From contig NZ_JANUGV010000004.1 of the NCBI RefSeq assembly GCF_024753215.1, positions 310,001 to 374,000 on the forward strand: DNA of 64,000 bases, in the 5' to 3' direction. Both the position numbers and the translations under genes were made by a program. Of this stretch, positions 23,938 through 31,779 are shown piece by piece (position 1 is the first letter of the stretch; each line of letters opens with the position of its first letter). This DNA is from Massilia solisilvae (lineage in GTDB: Bacteria > Pseudomonadota > Gammaproteobacteria > Burkholderiales > Burkholderiaceae_D). Under the pieces are notes generated by a model. That model did no database searches and had not been told where the DNA came from. It worked only from the letters and a program-made list of their open reading frames with translations.

Positions 23938-25380
23938 ATGAGTTCGCCCGCCGTTCTGGATGCATGCACCGCCGCGCCGCCGCCGCGCTGCGCGGGGTCC
24001 CCGCGTGCACGTCATCTGTACTTCAAGCTGATGTCCGACCCCGGCGCGGCGGCGGTCGCGGCGCAGGACTTCCTGCGCGAGCAGATCGACGCCGTGCGCG
24101 ATATCCCGGCCGACCTGCCCGATAATCCGGCCGCGCTGGCGGCCTGGATGCGGGACCGCGTGGGCGCCGTGGGCCTGCAATACCGCGACTACCTTGCCGG
24201 CCGCAAGAACGGCGCAGCGCGCCGCTATTTCGGCAGCCGCGCGCACGCGCTGTACTTCCTGAAGGGCGTGGCGCCCACCAAGCTGGTGGACGGCGCCTGG
24301 CTGTACGGCCTGCTGCGCCAATGGGCCAATCCCGATGTCCGCCCGCTGATCCGGACCTATCTGGAGGAGCTGGGCGACGGGGTGCCGGGAAAGAACCACG
24401 TCACGCTGTACCGCCAGCTGCTGGCTACGCACGGCTGCGAGGGTTGGGAGCAACTGCCCGCGCATCATTTCGTGCAGGGCGCGATTCAGCTCGCGCTGGC
24501 GCACAACGCCGAGCAGTTCCTGCCCGAGATCGTCGGCTACAACCTGGGCTACGAGCAGCTACCGTTGCACCTGCTGGTCAGCGCCTATGAGCTCAATGAA
24601 CTGGGCATCGACCCGTATTACTTCACGCTGCACGTCACGGTGGACAACGCGGCCAGCGGACATGCGCACAAGGCTGTGCAGGCGCTTGAACGGCTGCTGC
24701 CGCAGGTGGGCGACCGTGCCGCGTTCTGGCGCCGCGTGCTGGACGGCTACCGGCTCAACGAGCCCGGCGCCAGCACCACCTCGGTCATCGCGGAATTCGA
24801 CCTGACGGACGAGCTGGTGCGCATCCTGGCGGCGAAGAGCACCGTGGGCCGCAACCTGCACTCGGACTACTGCCGCGTGGCCGGCCGCCCGGTCAACGAC
24901 TGGCTGTCCGACCCGGCCCGGATTCCGGCCTTCCTGGCGGCGCTGCAGTCGGCAGGCTGGATCAGCCGTGGCGAGGATCCGGGCAACAGCCGGTTCTGGC
25001 GGCTGGTGAGCGGCGAGCGGGCCGAGATGTTCGGCGTCTTCACTGCCTACGAGCTGGAGGTGCTGCACGACTGGATCGCGGACGGCCAGGGCCAGGCTTC
25101 GCGCCGGGTGTTGAGCCACCGGGCGCGCCAGCGCACGCTCGACAACCTGGGCCAGCAGGAGACGCGTGGCCGGCAGCCCGAGCGCGGCCTGATCCGCCGC
25201 CACGCGCACGCGGACGAAGGCACGGACAACGAATTGCGCGTGCTCGAACAGCGCATCGCGGAGGCGGCGAACAAGCAGGAAGCGATGGAGGCGCTGCGTG
25301 AACTGATGGGGCCAGCGCTGCACCACACCGCGCCGGGCCTGATGGCCACCCGCATGTTCGCGCGCCTGCTCGACGCTTGA
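23938..25380 (+). CDS. Iron-containing redox enzyme, heme-oxygenase-like (HDO) fold
   Basis: 480-aa soluble protein of the 'iron-containing redox enzyme' (Haem_oxygenas_2) type. Candidate diiron ligands: E144 and H154 (EELGDGVPGKNH), E197 or E206 (LPEIVGYNLGYE), then H232-x3-D236 and H242 (LHVTVDNAASGH). The last motif is the family hallmark. It is longer than many family members, with a polar C-terminal part (about 320-480) including a basic, Gln-rich stretch. It lies 26 nt upstream of a cyanophycin synthetase paralogue, sharing its strand and probably its transcript. Related HDO enzymes oxidise amino acids or fatty acids. The substrate here is unknown. Confidence 0.75.
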   Translation: MSSPAVLDACTAAPPPRCAGSPRARHLYFKLMSDPGAAAVAAQDFLREQIDAVRDIPADLPDNPAALAAWMRDRVGAVGLQYRDYLAGRKNGAARRYFGSRAHALYFLKGVAPTKLVDGAWLYGLLRQWANPDVRPLIRTYLEELGDGVPGKNHVTLYRQLLATHGCEGWEQLPAHHFVQGAIQLALAHNAEQFLPEIVGYNLGYEQLPLHLLVSAYELNELGIDPYYFTLHVTVDNAASGHAHKAVQALERLLPQVGDRAAFWRRVLDGYRLNEPGASTTSVIAEFDLTDELVRILAAKSTVGRNLHSDYCRVAGRPVNDWLSDPARIPAFLAALQSAGWISRGEDPGNSRFWRLVSGERAEMFGVFTAYELEVLHDWIADGQGQASRRVLSHRARQRTLDNLGQQETRGRQPERGLIRRHAHADEGTDNELRVLEQRIAEAANKQEAMEALRELMGPALHHTAPGLMATRMFARLLDA

Positions 25381-25406: not shown

Positions 25407-27803
25407 GTGTACATCCTGGAACAGCGCTTCCTGCGCGGACCGAACATCCACGCCGACAGCCCGTGCCTGCTCAGCGTGCTCGACCTGGACGACCTGTACG
25501 GCGTCTCGAGCAAGGACATCCCCGGCTTTAACCACGCACTGCTCGGGCTGCTGCCTTCGCTGCACGGCCAGCTGGTGCCGACCGGGCAGCGCGGCGGGTT
25601 TGCCCAGCGCCTGCGCGAGGGGACCTATCTCGGGCGCGTGGTCGAGCAGCTGACCCTGGAACTGCAGACGCTGGCCGGAACACACGTCAGCTACGGCCGC
25701 ACCAAGCCGGCCGCGCGCAGGCCCGGGCAGGTGCGCATCGTCTGCGCCTATGAAGTGGAGAGCTTGGCGCAACCGGCGTTCCGGCTGGCGGTGCAGATCG
25801 CCGATGCGCTCGGCCACGGCCAGCCGTTCGACCTCGCCCCGCGCCTGGCCGAGCTGCGCGAGATCGTGGACCGGCACGCCATCGACCCTGGCACGGCGGC
25901 GGTGCTGGCCGCGGCGCACGAGCGCGGCGTTCCGGTGCAGCGGCTGACCGAAGACGCCAGCCTGTTTCAGCTTGGCTGGGGCGTCAGGCAGCGGCGCCTG
26001 CAGGCAGGCGCCACCAGCGAAACCAGCTTTATCGCCACGAAGATCGCCAGCGACAAGCAGCTCGCCAGGTCCTTGCTGCAGGAGGCGGGCGTGCCGGTGC
26101 CGCAGGGCGACATCGTGCGCTCGCTGGACGAGGCGCTCGAGGTGGCGCGCTGGGTCGGCGGCCCGGTCACGGTCAAGCCGCAGGGCGCCAGCGACGGCGT
26201 GACCGTCAACTGCAGCACCCGCGACGAGATCGAGCGTGCTTATGCATTGGCGCACAACTACGCGCGCCGTATTGTCGTCGAGCGCCACATCGAGGGCAGC
26301 GCATACCGCGTGCTGGTCGCAGGCGGCCGTGTTGCTGCAGCCCGCCAGCGTGGCGGGGCCAGCGCTGCTGGCGAGGACGTGACCGCGCTGCTGCCCGAGC
26401 CGACGCGGCGGCTGTGCGTGCGCGCCGCGGCGACGGTCGGGCTGGACGTGGCCGGCATCGACATCGTGTGCCGCGACATTGCGCAGCCGCTGGCGGCGCA
26501 GGGCGGGGCGGTAATCGAGGTGCACGCCGGATCCGACATCGCCCTGCAACAACATCCGGACGCCGGCACGGCGGTGCTCGACAGCCTGATGGGGGATTCG
26601 AACGGGCGTATCCCGCTGGTCGCGGTGACCGGCACCAATGGCAAGACCACCACCGCGCTGATGATCGCGCATGCCGCGCGCATGGCCGGCCGGGTAACGG
26701 GCGTGACCACCACCCATGGCGTGCACATCAACGGCAAGACGGTGGCGGTGGGCGATTGCACCGGCTACTGGTCGGCGCGCACCGTGCTGGCCGCGCCGGA
26801 CGTCGAGTTCGCGGTCCTGGAGACGGCGCGCGGCGGCATCCTCAAGCGCGGCCTGGCGTTCGACCGCTGCGACGTGGGCGTGGTGCTGAACGTGTCGCCG
26901 GACCATCTGGGGCTCGATGGCGTCGAGACCATCGAGGACCTGGCACAGGTGAAGGCTGTGGTGGCGGCATCGGCCTCGCGCGCGGCGGTGCTCAACGCGC
27001 AGGATGCGCTGTGCGTGGCGATGGTGCGGCGGCTGAAGCCGAACACGGAGGTGGTGTTCTTTTCGATGGAGCCGGAAAACCCGGTGCTGCTCAAGCACCT
27101 GGGCGACGGCGGGCGCGGCGCCTACCTGCAGGACAACGCCATCGTGCTTGCCGACGGCAAGCGCCAGGTCGAGCTGCTGCGGGTGGAGAGCATGCCTGCC
27201 GCATTTGGCGGCCTGGCGCGCTTCAACATCGCCAACGCGCTGGCGGCTGCCGCGGCGCTCATGGCCTGCGGGTTCCTGCACATGCAGATCGCCAGGGGCC
27301 TGTCGACCTTTGTCTCGGACGGCAAGACCAATCCGCTGCGCACCAACGTGTTCGACGTGCGCGGCGTGACCGTCATCGTCGACTATGCCCACAATCCGGC
27401 CGCGTACGTGGCGATGGCGGAGATGGCGCGCGCGATGCTGCCGCGCCAGCTGGTCGGGATCGTGACCGCGCCGGGTGACCGCCGCGACGACGATTTGCTG
27501 GAGATCGGTGAAGTGTGCGGCGAGCGCTTTGACGAGCTGGTGGTGTACGACTCGTCGCTGCGCGGCCGCGCGCCGGGCGAGACGGTGGACCTGATCCTCG
27601 AGGGGGCGCAGGAAGTGGTGGGCCCATCGGACACGCTGCATCGCGAGCTCGACGTCGGCAATGCGATCCGGCTCGGCCTGTCGCTGTGCGCGCCGGGCGA
27701 CGTGCTGGTGTTTTCGTGCGGCTCGTCGCTGCGCGTGTTCATCGAGGCGCTGCGCGTCACCGATCCGGAGAGCGCCGATCTGATTGCCGCGCAAACGGCG
27801 TGA
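25407..27803 (+). CDS. cphA': Cyanophycin synthetase paralogue: intact Mur ligase, degenerate ATP-grasp
   Basis: 798 aa, start GTG 25407 with AAGGA eight nt upstream. Domains: N-domain (1-200, LRGPNIHAD), ATP-grasp remnant (about 205-395) and Mur-ligase domain (400-798). The Mur half is complete: P-loop GTNGKTTT (409-416), LETARGGILKRG (471-482), SPDHLG (497-502), VDYAHNPAA (658-666). The ATP-grasp half lacks about 70 residues present in the minus-strand paralogue, including NANLSTGG. The metal-binding EVNAAPG is EVHAGSD (371-377), and KPLDANQG is KPQGASDG. In known CphA, ATP-grasp adds Asp and Mur ligase adds Arg, so this protein should retain only Arg addition. Confidence 0.85.
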   Translation: MYILEQRFLRGPNIHADSPCLLSVLDLDDLYGVSSKDIPGFNHALLGLLPSLHGQLVPTGQRGGFAQRLREGTYLGRVVEQLTLELQTLAGTHVSYGRTKPAARRPGQVRIVCAYEVESLAQPAFRLAVQIADALGHGQPFDLAPRLAELREIVDRHAIDPGTAAVLAAAHERGVPVQRLTEDASLFQLGWGVRQRRLQAGATSETSFIATKIASDKQLARSLLQEAGVPVPQGDIVRSLDEALEVARWVGGPVTVKPQGASDGVTVNCSTRDEIERAYALAHNYARRIVVERHIEGSAYRVLVAGGRVAAARQRGGASAAGEDVTALLPEPTRRLCVRAAATVGLDVAGIDIVCRDIAQPLAAQGGAVIEVHAGSDIALQQHPDAGTAVLDSLMGDSNGRIPLVAVTGTNGKTTTALMIAHAARMAGRVTGVTTTHGVHINGKTVAVGDCTGYWSARTVLAAPDVEFAVLETARGGILKRGLAFDRCDVGVVLNVSPDHLGLDGVETIEDLAQVKAVVAASASRAAVLNAQDALCVAMVRRLKPNTEVVFFSMEPENPVLLKHLGDGGRGAYLQDNAIVLADGKRQVELLRVESMPAAFGGLARFNIANALAAAAALMACGFLHMQIARGLSTFVSDGKTNPLRTNVFDVRGVTVIVDYAHNPAAYVAMAEMARAMLPRQLVGIVTAPGDRRDDDLLEIGEVCGERFDELVVYDSSLRGRAPGETVDLILEGAQEVVGPSDTLHRELDVGNAIRLGLSLCAPGDVLVFSCGSSLRVFIEALRVTDPESADLIAAQTA

Positions 27804-27811
27804 ACCGCAGG

Positions 27812-27832
27812 CCGGGCAGTTGTGCTGCCCGG
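27812..27832. terminator. Hairpin between convergent cphA genes
   Basis: Eight-pair stem CCGGGCAG/CTGCCCGG with loop TTGTG, in the 33-nt gap between the two convergent stops. No T-tract on either side, so simple Rho-independent termination is not assured. Confidence 0.45.
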
Positions 27833-27836
27833 ACGC

Positions 27837-29984
27837 TCAGGAATCCATCGCCGCGCCTGTCGAGACGCCGTGCGCATCGGACGCGTTCGAGCACGGCGCG
27901 GCGGCCATGCTGTCCCACGTGAAGCTGCGCAGCGCATCCCTGATTTCAAGGTCGCCAAAGCCCGACGCGGCCAGCGCGCAGGTGGCGGCCAGCGCGCTGG
28001 CGAGCAGGTGCCGCGCGACGCCGCCGGCGGAAATCCGCATCTGGTGCGCGTCGATCAGCGCCTTGTGCCGCATGCCGTCGGCGATGACCAAGGTGTGGTC
28101 CAGCAGGTAGGCGCCGCGTCCACCGCCTTCCAGGTGACGCAGCAGCACCGGGTTTTCGGCGTCGAGCGAGACGTAAAGCACTTCGATGCGTTCCTTCAGG
28201 TCCGCAGCCATTGCGACGCAGCGGTCGTCCTCGGCATTGAGCACGACTGCGCGCGAGGCGCCACGCGCCACCACTGCCTGGAGCCGGGCCTCGCCGTCGT
28301 CCGCCACGTTCAGCACCACTGCCACGTCGCAGCGGTCGAAGGCCAGGCCATGCTGCAGTACGCCGTCGTGCCCGGTCTCGAGCACCGCGATGTCCACTTC
28401 GGGCGAGGCGAGGACGCTGCGCGCGCAGCGGTAGCCGGTGCAGTCGCCTTGCATGGTCCGGTTGCCGCTGATGTAGACGCCATCGGCGGTAGTCATGCCG
28501 GTTCGCATCCCAGCCATGCGTGCGGCGTGGCCGATCAACAGCGTGGTCGTGGTTGCGCCCGTGCTGCCGGAGACCCCGATCACCGGAATGCGCCCGTCGT
28601 CCTCCCCGAACATCTGCTCGACGATGGCGGCGCCGGCGTTGCGGGGCTTGCCGTGGCTGGGGTACTGGTGCATGCGGATTCCCGGCGCGGCGTTCACCTC
28701 GATGATGCCGCCGTGCTGTTCGCGCAGCGGCCGGGCGATGTCCTCGCAGACGATGTCGATGCCGGCCACGTCCAGGCCGATCGTGCGTGCCGCGCGCACG
28801 CAAAGCTCGCGCGTCTCGTCCGGCAGCAGATCGGTGACGTCCTCGGCGGTGCCGCCTGTGGAAAGGTTGGCATTGCCGCGCAACTGGACGTCGACGCCGG
28901 CAGCAGGCACGCAATCGGCGCTGTACCCTTGCGCGGCCAGGGTATGCACCGCCAGCTCGTCCAGAGCGATCCTGGTGAGGACCTTGGTGTGGCCGTCGCC
29001 GCGCGCCGGGTTGCGGTTCTCGCATTCGACCAGCTCGCGCACGGAGTGGCGCCCATCGCCGGTCACGAATGGCGGCCGGCGCCACGAGGCGGCAGCTACC
29101 CTGGTTCCGGTCACCAGCACGCGATAGTCGCGGCCCGCCAGGTATTCTTCGACGATGACGCGCGGACCGTAGCCACGCGCGTGTTCCCATGCGCGTTCGA
29201 CTTGATCGGGCGTGCCGCACGTCGTGGTGACGCCCTTGCCCTGGTTGGCGTCCAGCGGCTTGACGGTGACGATGCCGCCAAGCTGCCGTGCCACGCGCAA
29301 GGCGTCCTCGAGGCTGTCGACGGTGGCGCCGGCCGGCACCGGTACGCCGGCCTGTTCCAGCAGGGTCTTGGTGAGCTGCTTGTTACGGGCGATGCCAACC
29401 GCGATGGCATTGGTGGCACCGGTGATGGTTGCCTGCAGGCGCTTCTGGCGGCTGCCCCAGCCGAGCTGGAACAGGTTGGCCTGGTCGAGCAGGCGCATGC
29501 TCGGAATGCCGCGCCGTTGTGCCGCCGCCAGCACGGCTGCCGTACTGGTGCCGATTGCGTGGCGCGCGGCGGCCGCGCGCAGACGCTCCAGCGCCTCGGC
29601 CATCGGATACTGCTCGCCGCGCACCAGCGCATTGAGCAGCTCCACCGTGGTGGCCAGCGCCAGCGCCGCCACCTGCTCGCACTCGTAGCCGCACGCGATG
29701 TGGTACTGCCCGCCCTGGCTGGCCACCGTGTGGCTGAACCCGGCCGGGGCGCCTGCCTCGGTTTGCAGGTGCATGGCAACCGGCTCGATGGCTTGGTCGA
29801 TGCTGGCGCCGCTGGCCAGGCCCTTGGCCGCGCCAGTCGGCAGCGCGGGCAGCAGGGCCAGCAGGCGCTCGTGCAGGTCAGGCAGCATGCCCGGGCCGCC
29901 AGCTGCATCGATCTCCGCCAACAGGCAAGGGGTCTCGGCGTACAGGTTCGGTCCGCGCAGGACGCGCTGTTCCTTGATTCTCAT
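27837..29984 (-). CDS. cphA: Cyanophycin synthetase paralogue: intact ATP-grasp, dead truncated Mur ligase
   Basis: 715 aa. N-domain 1-185 (LRGPNLYAE), then a full ATP-grasp domain: VKPLDANQGKGV (241-252), VEEYLAGRDYRV (278-289), LTRI, NANLSTGGTA (371-380), EVNAAPGIRMH (429-439). The Mur-ligase half has lost its chemistry. The P-loop reads GSTGATTT (473-480) with Lys gone, the GGILKRG motif reads DGVLQHG, SPDHLG is missing, and the chain stops before any VDYAHNP or C-terminal lobe. It should add Asp but not Arg. Start ATG 29984 overlaps the cphB stop (ATGA). It is convergent with its complementary paralogue. Confidence 0.85.
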   Translation of the reverse strand: MRIKEQRVLRGPNLYAETPCLLAEIDAAGGPGMLPDLHERLLALLPALPTGAAKGLASGASIDQAIEPVAMHLQTEAGAPAGFSHTVASQGGQYHIACGYECEQVAALALATTVELLNALVRGEQYPMAEALERLRAAAARHAIGTSTAAVLAAAQRRGIPSMRLLDQANLFQLGWGSRQKRLQATITGATNAIAVGIARNKQLTKTLLEQAGVPVPAGATVDSLEDALRVARQLGGIVTVKPLDANQGKGVTTTCGTPDQVERAWEHARGYGPRVIVEEYLAGRDYRVLVTGTRVAAASWRRPPFVTGDGRHSVRELVECENRNPARGDGHTKVLTRIALDELAVHTLAAQGYSADCVPAAGVDVQLRGNANLSTGGTAEDVTDLLPDETRELCVRAARTIGLDVAGIDIVCEDIARPLREQHGGIIEVNAAPGIRMHQYPSHGKPRNAGAAIVEQMFGEDDGRIPVIGVSGSTGATTTTLLIGHAARMAGMRTGMTTADGVYISGNRTMQGDCTGYRCARSVLASPEVDIAVLETGHDGVLQHGLAFDRCDVAVVLNVADDGEARLQAVVARGASRAVVLNAEDDRCVAMAADLKERIEVLYVSLDAENPVLLRHLEGGGRGAYLLDHTLVIADGMRHKALIDAHQMRISAGGVARHLLASALAATCALAASGFGDLEIRDALRSFTWDSMAAAPCSNASDAHGVSTGAAMDS

Positions 29985-30865
29985 GAGATGGGGTTCCGCT
30001 TGGTGACGTTCTCCAGAAACTCCAGCAGCGGCGGCGGCAGCGCGCGCTCCGGCGTGTGCGCATCGTCCGGCAGACGATATTTGCTACCTGACGGCAGCAG
30101 GTGCAGGCGCACGTCGATCAGTTCGGGCGTCATGTGGTCGTTGATTTCAGCGATGTTGGTGGCCATGTGACGGCCGTCGACGATGGTGACCGCGCCTTCG
30201 CCCAGCACCTCGATGCCGACGCCGCGCTCGACCACGAGTGCGGTGTCTTCGTCGATGCCGATGCCTTGCAGGTAAGGGTTGGCGGCCACCACGGACAGCA
30301 GCCGGGCCAGCCGCTGGCGCTCGGAGAAATGCTGGTCGATCACCACCTTGTGCAGGAAGCCCAGGCCGGCGCCCAGGCTCACCGCGCCTTTCTCGGGCTG
30401 GAGCTCGGCGCGTCCTTGCGCCAGCATGTGGCCCGACATGGCCGAAGCGCCGGCGCTGGTGCCGCCGATGCAGGCTCCGCGCAGTTTGAGCGCGGTGTGC
30501 ATTTCGGCGTCGAGCGCCGTGCCGCCGATGAGCGCGAGCAGCCGCTTCTGGTCGCCGCCGGTCATGAAGATGCCGTCGGCTTCGGTGATGGCGGCGATGT
30601 GCTGTTCGTCGTTGGCGTCCTGCCGGCTCTGCAGGTGCAGGTGCTGGCACTGCCGCACGCCGATGTCGGCGAACGCCTTGTCATAGACCTGCCACATCTC
30701 GTCCGCTTTGGCGCTGGCGGCAGTGATGACGACGATGCGCGCATGCGCGCCACCGGACAGTTCGACGAAGCGCGACAGGATCGCCTTGTCGTGCTGGCGG
30801 TCCTCGCAGCCGCCGATGATCACCAGGTGGCCATGCGCAGCGGTGTTGTGCGGTTCGGTCTTCAT
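29981..30865 (-). CDS. cphB: Cyanophycinase
   Basis: Serine exopeptidase (family S51) that cuts cyanophycin into beta-Asp-Arg dipeptides. 294 aa from ATG 30865, which overlaps the upstream stop as ATGA. The nucleophile Ser lies in GGTSAGASAMSG, with the class-I-amidotransferase-like surroundings TGGDQKRL and IGIDEDTAL. No signal peptide, so it acts on intracellular polymer. It is followed by cphA with overlapping codons, so degradation and synthesis genes are co-translated. Confidence 0.92.
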   Translation of the reverse strand: MKTEPHNTAAHGHLVIIGGCEDRQHDKAILSRFVELSGGAHARIVVITAASAKADEMWQVYDKAFADIGVRQCQHLHLQSRQDANDEQHIAAITEADGIFMTGGDQKRLLALIGGTALDAEMHTALKLRGACIGGTSAGASAMSGHMLAQGRAELQPEKGAVSLGAGLGFLHKVVIDQHFSERQRLARLLSVVAANPYLQGIGIDEDTALVVERGVGIEVLGEGAVTIVDGRHMATNIAEINDHMTPELIDVRLHLLPSGSKYRLPDDAHTPERALPPPLLEFLENVTKRNPIS

Positions 30866-31779
30866 CCTGCAATGATCCGCGCGTGCGGCATGTCCTCGCT
30901 CTGGTTGGTGGCGTGGCCGGCCTCCTGCCGGCTCACCGCGATCAGGCCGACCTCGTAGCGCTTGTCGATCAGGTCCACGCCGCGTTGCAGCGCCTGCTGC
31001 AGCGGCATGCCGTCGGCGATCCACTGGTACACGGTGCGCGCCAGCAGGTGGCGCATGATCTGCTCGCCGATGCCGGTGGCCGCCACCGCGCCCTCGGGAC
31101 CGGCGTAGAAGCCCGCGCCAACGACCGGGGTATCGCCCACGCGGCCGAGCAGGCTGGGGGCGGATCCGCCGGTGGAGGCGGCTACTGCAAAGCTGCCGTC
31201 AGCGTCACGCACCACCGCGCCCACCGTGTCGCACTTGGCGCGCTTGGGCAGTTGCAGCGGCACGTTGTAATTCCAGAAGTGCACGAACTGGCCGTTGTCC
31301 ACGCCGGGCATCGCCGGCATCGACCCGGCCAGCTCCTGCAGCATCTTGCGGTGTTCCTCGCGCTGCCTGTCGCCGGCGCCGGGGTGGGCCGACAGGCCGA
31401 GGGCGCGGGCGAGCCGGTCGGCGCCTTCGCCGGCCAGCAGGCAGTGCGGCGTTTCGGCGACCGAGCGCGCCAGCAGCACCGGGTTCTTCACGTCGCGCAC
31501 GCAGGCCACGGCGCCGAGGCGCCCGCGGGTATCCATGACCGAGGCGTCCATCTCGATGGTGGCGCCGTCCAGTCCCAGCGCAGCGCCGGTGCCGGCATTG
31601 AAGCGGCCATCGTCCTCCAGCACCACGATGGCCGACACGGCCGCGTCCAGCGCCTCACCGCCCTCGCGCAGGCGCTCGAGCGCGCGCTCGGCGGCGCGTT
31701 CGCAGCCGTCCTGGCAGTCCATCGGCTCGCCCACGCCGCCGTGGACGACGATGGCCCAGCCTGCTTGCTTGTTGCTCAT
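30862..31779 (-). CDS. iaaA: Isoaspartyl peptidase / L-asparaginase (plant-type Ntn hydrolase)
   Basis: Cleaves beta-Asp dipeptides, here most likely the beta-Asp-Arg released by cyanophycinase, giving free Asp and Arg. 305 aa. The self-cleavage site and new N-terminal nucleophile is Thr185 in CDTVGAVVRD, with GGVGEP near the N-terminus and FNAGTGA (about 60-66). Start ATG 31779 has GGAG nine nt before it. First gene of the minus-strand arm iaaA-cphB-cphA. Confidence 0.92.
   Translation of the reverse strand: MSNKQAGWAIVVHGGVGEPMDCQDGCERAAERALERLREGGEALDAAVSAIVVLEDDGRFNAGTGAALGLDGATIEMDASVMDTRGRLGAVACVRDVKNPVLLARSVAETPHCLLAGEGADRLARALGLSAHPGAGDRQREEHRKMLQELAGSMPAMPGVDNGQFVHFWNYNVPLQLPKRAKCDTVGAVVRDADGSFAVAASTGGSAPSLLGRVGDTPVVGAGFYAGPEGAVAATGIGEQIMRHLLARTVYQWIADGMPLQQALQRGVDLIDKRYEVGLIAVSRQEAGHATNQSEDMPHARIIAG

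Follow-up and report, generated by a model that had tools for sequence, protein, structure and literature searches.

The locus described here lies in a window of 64,000 nucleotides from the soil bacterium Massilia solisilvae (contig NZ_JANUGV010000004.1, positions 310,001 to 374,000), the window being the whole stretch of DNA that was analysed, and comprises two paralogous genes for cyanophycin synthetase (CphA), henceforth plus and minus, which converge with 33 bp between their stop codons. The well-studied CphA1 is a single chain with two alternating ligase sites, an ATP-grasp (G) site that adds aspartate (Asp) and a Mur-ligase (M) site that adds arginine (Arg), and its N domain is proposed to assist the polymer in moving from one site to the other. 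In the window, the two sites are kept by different proteins: plus retains a complete M domain while its G domain lacks the omega module (G-omega), and minus retains a complete G domain while its M core is dead and its Mur lid (Mlid) is mostly gone, a short tail standing in its place. Coordinates are collected in Table 1. We refer to loci of the window type as set B and to a separate tandem cphA locus as set A; the window genome is G000, and those of Massilia agilis JCM 31605 and M. terrae JCM 31606 are G014 and G084, respectively.

Table 1. Features of the set-B locus in the window, with set A of the same genome in the last row.
Feature	Position	Strand	Remarks
CphA paralogue plus	25407-27803	+	798 residues, GTG start; N domain, ATP-grasp without G-omega, complete Mur-ligase domain; proposed Arg-adding half
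Approximate G-omega deletion scar in plus	26355-26380	+	Te residues 325-399; NANLSTGG Asp-binding loop lost; 6/75 columns filled
Intact Mur-ligase domain of plus	26607-27800	+	P-loop TGTNGKTTT at about 26628-26654; GGILKRG, DHLG, VDYAHNP, GDRRD
CphA paralogue minus	27837-29984	-	715 residues, ATG start; N domain, complete ATP-grasp, dead Mur core; proposed Asp-adding half
Dead Mur P-loop of minus	28545-28571	-	SGSTGATTT (Ala at Lys499 position)
cphB, cyanophycinase	29981-30865	-	TIGR02069, 273 bits (cut-off 126.6); stop overlaps start codon of minus (ATGA)
iaaA-like beta-aspartyl peptidase (isoaspartyl aminopeptidase type)	30862-31779	-	Abuts cphB; start codon by eye
Haem_oxygenas_2 protein (iron-containing redox enzyme family)	23938-25380	+	480 residues, just upstream of plus; PF14518, 97 bits
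Set A (CphA1 and CphA')	L009 6214-11042 (G000 C1:696-701 kb)		

We accounted for each module and catalytic residue against TeCphA1 (7wac), taking module limits and catalytic residues from the excerpted text of PMC9427784 and counting Mlid to Te residue 824. Plus fills 171/180 columns of Gcore, 66/71 of Glid, 6/75 of G-omega, 234/236 of Mcore and 100/101 of Mlid, while the corresponding values for minus are 179/180, 68/71, 75/75, 223/236 and 25/101; the phmmer alignment of plus is interrupted at the deletion scar. At the ten G-site positions (K220, K261, R309, R323, N394, S396, D431, E450, N452 and R458), minus reads KKRRNSDENR and plus KKRR--DEHA, having lost N394 and S396 of the Asp-binding loop in G-omega and carrying Ala in place of R458. 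At the eight M-site positions (K499, T500, T522, E558, D585, H586, R731 and H748), plus reads KTTEDHRH and minus ATAED-C-, with Lys499 changed to Ala and His586 deleted. Judged by these residues, plus passes as a working Mur-ligase site with its lid and fails as a working ATP-grasp site, and minus does the reverse. TeCphA1 is impaired by Lys499Ala and by removal of the Mur lid (PMC9427784, excerpt), and a D585A H586A mutant serves as the M-dead form of SuCphA1 (PMC9262961, excerpt). AlphaFold2 models of plus and minus superpose on TeCphA1 over 779 and 686 residues, respectively. With NCBIfam TIGR02068 (cut-off 850 bits), plus scores 797.2 and minus 705.5, both below the cut-off, while the CphA1 of the same genome scores 976.7. 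The original prediction, made from the letters of the window, had given the coordinates, lengths and motifs of both genes, a plus protein short of about 70 ATP-grasp residues including NANLSTGG with its Mur motifs kept, and a minus protein with a complete ATP-grasp domain, the P-loop Lys replaced by Ala and the C-terminal lobe missing; all of this holds, and the alignment to 7wac places the losses reciprocally in the domains that it named.

Both genes are damaged alike in G014, a separate assembly, which excludes sequencing error, and the plus and minus frames are open in both genomes, free of stops and frameshifts. The comparison also settles a detail of the plus G domain. Loss of a metal-site Asn (EVHAGSD) had been listed as part of the damage, and the change is indeed present in G000; G014, however, reads EVNAGSD and has the same G-omega deletion, so that the Asn-to-His change is ruled out as the inactivating event.

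Across the genus, 62 genomes were examined, of which 59 have set B and 58 were tabulated. Left out of the counts are G077, with frameshifts in both genes and their neighbours, and G005, G017 and G029, which lack set B; an extra minus-type gene from a metagenome-assembled genome (MAG; G024b) is counted among the 58 minus rows, and the plus gene of G023 is cut by a contig end. All eight M letters are present in 57/57 tabulated plus genes and all ten G letters in 58/58 minus genes. The G letters are incomplete in eight of the 57 plus genes (G000, G014, G084, G031, G061, G065, G021 and G035), or in 9/58 when the plus-position gene of G062 is included, and the M letters are incomplete in two of the 58 minus genes (G000 and G014), each with a broken plus partner. 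The reverse loss is absent from the genus table: there is no plus without a Mur site and no minus without an ATP-grasp site. The G062 gene, taken for minus-like in our initial BLAST, is without a G domain and keeps all M letters; it groups with plus in the full-length tree (84) and in the 51-row M-domain tree (93/95), while a smaller, quick M-domain tree contradicts these by placing it (85), as well as the M. mucilaginosa group (89), on the minus side. On a tree of CphA1 and CphA' from 58 genomes, loss of the plus G site amounts to two changes, and G062, which is off that tree, is a third. A minus-like gene also occurs in G226, a genome of another genus.

Pairwise NG86 estimates of nonsynonymous to synonymous rates (dN/dS), with within-gene Fisher tests, mirror the pattern of losses, these being simple counts on modest numbers of changes and not codon models. 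Between G000 and G014, dN/dS in plus is 0.358 for the G domain and 0.034 for Mcore (Fisher p 1.2e-4), and in minus 0.139 and 0.373 (p 0.033). A second damaged clade of the genus gives, over four pairs, 0.14-0.54 (G) and 0.04-0.17 (Mcore) in plus, and 0.12-0.19 and 0.21-0.34 in minus. The kept halves are thus under purifying selection and the lost halves are looser. We also compared 18 close pairs in which both genes are intact, 17 of them picked from the CphA1 and CphA' tree and one by similarity. In 17 of the 18, Mcore is tighter in plus than in minus (Wilcoxon p 7.6e-5), while the G domains are not clearly different (plus looser in 7/18, p 0.10). The asymmetry between the Mur domains therefore predates the losses, whereas that between the ATP-grasp domains does not.

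The same breakage recurs outside the genus. When 294 genomes sampled evenly from a larger group were searched across the family, 52 gave matches, some of them short frames, and 18 regions were fetched from these matches. They contain nine genes that lack the G site and have intact Mur motifs (hereafter G-less; G312, G246, G100, two in G315, G242, G171, G158 and G096). On the 51-row M-domain tree, G loss amounts to seven changes; as G100 is only weakly placed (80/88), we put the count at about six or seven losses of the ATP-grasp site in the family, as the tree suggests. The shortest G-less proteins (G062, G312, G246 and G100, about 570-610 residues; also G084) lack most of the G domain.

In another genus, g64, a G-less gene with intact M was found at E 1e-140 in 16 of the 74 genomes; all 16 have a G-intact partner, and in two the Mur motifs of the partner are dead. 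The G171 partner has the P-loop GASGTTAT, no DHLG and 20/101 lid columns, and that of G385 a damaged P-loop, no DHLG and 39/101 lid columns. In its Mur part, the G-less gene of G390 and of G389 shares 91-92% identity with that of G171, and in both genomes the partner has kept its Mur site; the G389 partner lacks most of the N domain (42/161). The M-domain tree of the G-less genes does not separate G171, G385, G389 and G390, while the G-domain tree of the partners joins G390 and G389 to G171 (89/95) and sets G385 apart. Since the lesions also differ, it is likelier that the Mur losses in G171 and G385 are separate and that both came after the G loss. Between the G171 and G390 partners, dN/dS is 0.184 for the G domain and 0.659 for Mcore (p 5e-5). 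A search of all 74 genomes with the full-length gene returned 43 set-B rows (E 1e-185), and only those of G171 and G385 stop before the Mur lid; 27 of the 43 rows, those other than the 16 partners of G-less genes, were judged by match length and may still be accompanied by G-less genes of other types that miss the E 1e-140 cut, such as the second one of G315 (E 3e-132).

Over both genera, full Mur loss is found in 4/24 genes that have a G-less paralogue and in 0/76 others, counts in which the genes are not independent and 27 of the 76 are classed by match length and by the absence of a G-less gene at E 1e-140. Reciprocal Mur loss in the window lineage, in G171 and in G385 probably represents three separate events, and two or three lineages is a better figure than the gene counts. 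The recurrence of reciprocal losses in related genomes, put forward with the original prediction as a way of checking it, is thereby found in G014 and, in g64, in G171 and G385.

The neighbouring genes bear on the role of the pair. On the minus strand the iaaA-like gene, cphB and minus follow one another with overlapping or abutting ends; the iaaA-like product scores 118 bits with NF007589, under the cut-off of 567, and is hence assigned at the level of the family only. In the 59 genus genomes with set B, the neighbours found at the fetched loci, of which contig ends cut several, were cphB (58 genomes), the iaaA-like gene (56) and the Haem_oxygenas_2 gene (57); the Haem_oxygenas_2 gene accompanies the set-B cphA cluster in other genera too. 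From its clustering, cphB is presumably of the intracellular type. A strong match to the cyanophycinase model (at least 253 bits) is present in 57/62 genomes; some match above the cut-off occurs in 62/62, with only weaker ones in the remaining five, namely G005, G017 and G029 (no set B), G071 (contig end) and G077 (frameshifts). In the cyanophycin-Massilia literature, the excerpted PMC11844795 mentions two strains with homologues for cyanophycin synthesis and hydrolysis. Given the adjoining degradation genes and the retained sites, cyanophycin metabolism is the likely role of set B.

Several arrangements of the cluster deserve mention in their own right. In G062 (L096) a cphB match lies on either side of the set-B pair. 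In the single-contig genome G064 the set-B genes are about 3 Mb apart (C1:5495627 and C1:2355382), and in G066 (L101 4271-8687) genes resembling fumarate reductase/succinate dehydrogenase and a LysR-like gene, all named by eye, stand between them; this stretch holds ordinary genes and gave no Rfam match. It seems that rearrangements readily occur in the space between the converging genes. A contig of a Sericytochromatia MAG (L052 1649-4462) carries a complete set-B-like cphA with cphB and an iaaA-like fragment, through horizontal transfer or misbinning.

Set A lies on another contig of the window genome and consists of a complete CphA1 (856 residues), whose identity to plus is about 42%, and a tandem CphA' (723 residues). 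This CphA' lacks the Mur P-loop Lys and the Mur lid, with a P-loop reading TGTLGTS and an altered Asp loop. Within the genus, CphA1 is present in 58/62 genomes. A relaxed N-domain primer-making motif (C, 17-21 residues, HxxE[HN]) occurs in 0/58 CphA1 and 56/57 CphA' sequences. From its residues, set A may itself divide labour.

We think it probable that plus and minus are two paralogous cyanophycin synthetases between which the two ligase activities have been divided. Minus, with its intact ATP-grasp site, would activate the C-terminal carboxylate of the chain and add Asp, and plus, with its intact Mur site, would add Arg; the chain end would pass between them, either within a mixed tetramer or by release and rebinding, and CphB and IaaA from the adjoining genes would degrade the product. 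Judging by sister genomes, one copy would have lost ATP-grasp first, the other then losing Mur in some lineages. Gcore and Mcore build the CphA1 tetramer (PMC9427784, excerpt), and both window proteins keep these two modules, which makes a mixed tetramer possible. On the wider view that what is presumably the Oxalobacteraceae repeatedly split CphA, with Mur-only paralogues arising six or seven times, partner Mur loss probably in three lineages, and an obligately two-gene polymerase that hands the chain from one protein to the other at every residue, we consider the chances evenly balanced.

A number of observations weigh against this division of labour, or narrow it. With a complete CphA1 and a CphA' elsewhere in the genome, the window pair need not be required for polymer. 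The claim that neither protein makes polymer alone consequently cannot mean that the cell needs both genes for it, although together they do hold one good copy of each site; a third complete cphA doing the job elsewhere had been named as telling against the pair, and for the cell such a gene exists at set A. In G031, G061, G065 and G035, minus keeps all eight M letters, with GGILKRG and VDYAHN altered (to LEHG or LERG, and to FDHGHN, FDNAHN or FDYGHN), the partners in G021 and G062 keep both sites (KRG retained), and in g64 the Mur motifs are intact in 14 of the 16 partners. M. terrae has kept a G-less plus, in which VDYAHN is altered to VHYAHN, and no minus was found there at E 1e-30; likewise, no set-B G-intact partner of the G-less genes in G158, G096 and G100 was found at E 1e-60, and all three genomes have CphA1. 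These four unpaired cases imply that a Mur-only protein can persist without a partner of the same type, so that dependence on the exact partner is not general. Statistically, the contrast within minus is weak at p 0.033, its Mcore (0.37) is not neutral and its N domain is loose (0.39), and in the second damaged clade the minus Fisher tests are not significant (0.065-0.87). A tree-aware pairs test on the genus tree, with partial changes counted, found two independent pairs, with which significance is unreachable, and we therefore reject any phylogeny-corrected association drawn from the genus tree alone. Finally, the lack of most of Gcore in the shortest G-less proteins makes a relay between separate enzymes likelier there, and a CphA1-like mixed tetramer unlikely.

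Some of these observations would also fit if each half-enzyme acted mainly with the canonical CphA1 or CphA', as an auxiliary Arg- or Asp-adding subunit, and not with its neighbour. CphA1 is nearly ubiquitous in the genus sample, it may be the partner in G158, G096 and G100, where, as in M. terrae, a G-less protein occurs and no G-intact set-B partner was found, and inactive full-length variants of SuCphA1 have been seen to act in trans on another CphA1, though via the N-domain primer site (PMC9262961, excerpt). We regard this as unlikely, though a serious rival. In G062, where neither a canonical CphA1 nor a CphA' was found, plus is G-less and minus entirely intact; full Mur loss was seen only in genes that have a G-less paralogue, within the limits on those counts given above; and cphB remains beside the set-B genes.

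It is more doubtful still that both genes are decaying pseudogenes whose opposite damage is coincidental, with CphA1 carrying the function. Such decay would agree with the complete CphA1 in the genome, with the missing minus of M. terrae and with the relaxed N domain and Mcore of minus, but the frames in G000 and G014 are free of stops and frameshifts, the kept domains are constrained (dN/dS 0.034 for plus Mcore and 0.139 for minus G), the retained site letters are complete in every tabulated gene, and the pattern of loss is never reversed in the genus table and recurs in another genus. Least of all do we expect new substrates, with minus a CphA2-like polymerase of beta-Asp-Arg dipeptides supplied by CphB and plus a maker of beta-aspartyl dipeptides or a ligase for another amino acid, for although minus has the CphA2 plan (ATP-grasp intact, no Mur P-loop Lys, no Mlid) and its start overlaps the end of cphB, its match scores and tree position, given below, argue against a place in the CphA2 clade.

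If the activities are indeed divided between plus and minus, then nature has separated the two sites, and related genomes cover each stage, from two full copies through damage in one to damage in both. Enzymes from this series could show whether the sites have to share a protein or a tetramer, by what route the chain end is transferred and whether Asp addition can be adjusted independently of Arg addition. The pattern is also an unusually clear example of subfunctionalisation proceeding by domain, with replicates in two or more lineages. For the preparation of modified polymers or beta-aspartyl dipeptides, cyanophycin ligases with a Mur site only would offer a new kind of tool.

Among the closest known systems is CphA1 itself (TeCphA1, 7wac-7waf; SuCphA1, 7lg5), with which the window proteins share ancestry and the three-domain plan, each matching it over nearly its full length; the difference is that CphA1 has both sites in one chain, whereas each window chain has, by its residues, one, the two together making one complete copy of each. 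The set-B cphA genes of M. mucilaginosa, M. aquatica and M. rubra (L049-L051) belong to the same type of cluster, with cphB and the Haem_oxygenas_2 gene adjoining, and in the full-length tree they belong to neither the plus nor the minus clade (support 86). They differ in being one complete gene with both sites intact within the fetched 22 kb, a span that does not establish them as unduplicated genome-wide; G226 has an 87%-identical relative of this gene together with a second set-B gene elsewhere.

The original prediction had pointed to the neighbouring cphA/cphA' pair of the Ralstonia eutropha type, which we take to be represented by set A of this genome, no Ralstonia sequence having been compared. 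Common to both arrangements is that two cphA genes adjoin and that one of them lacks a working Mur domain. The Ralstonia-type pair, so taken, is however tandem and includes a complete CphA1, while the window pair is convergent and the partner lacks ATP-grasp. We therefore rule out that plus and minus are that pair: the genes converge, neither is complete, and set A fits the tandem type instead. Neighbouring cphA copies are mentioned in the excerpted text of PMC10687191. The open-access literature describes CphA1, CphA2 and such neighbouring copies; in it, the subscription papers on CphA2 and Ralstonia being outside this scope, we recognised no Mur-only CphA, no reciprocally split pair and no Mur-only counterpart of CphA2.

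CphA2 (Gloeothece, 7ta5; Stanieria, 8fxh), which according to the excerpt of PMC9427784 lacks the P-loop of the M domain and Mlid, has features in common with minus: the ATP-grasp domain is intact, the Mur site is dead and hardly any of the Mur lid is left. Closest kinship of minus to CphA2 is nonetheless rejected, since minus matches CphA1 with 447 bits and CphA2 with 184, and falls among full-length set-B synthetases in a tree built without CphA2 sequences. Unlike CphA2, minus also keeps the free-Asp-binding loop and adjoins a Mur-only partner, and it is the Mur-only paralogues, plus among them, that form the mirror image of CphA2.

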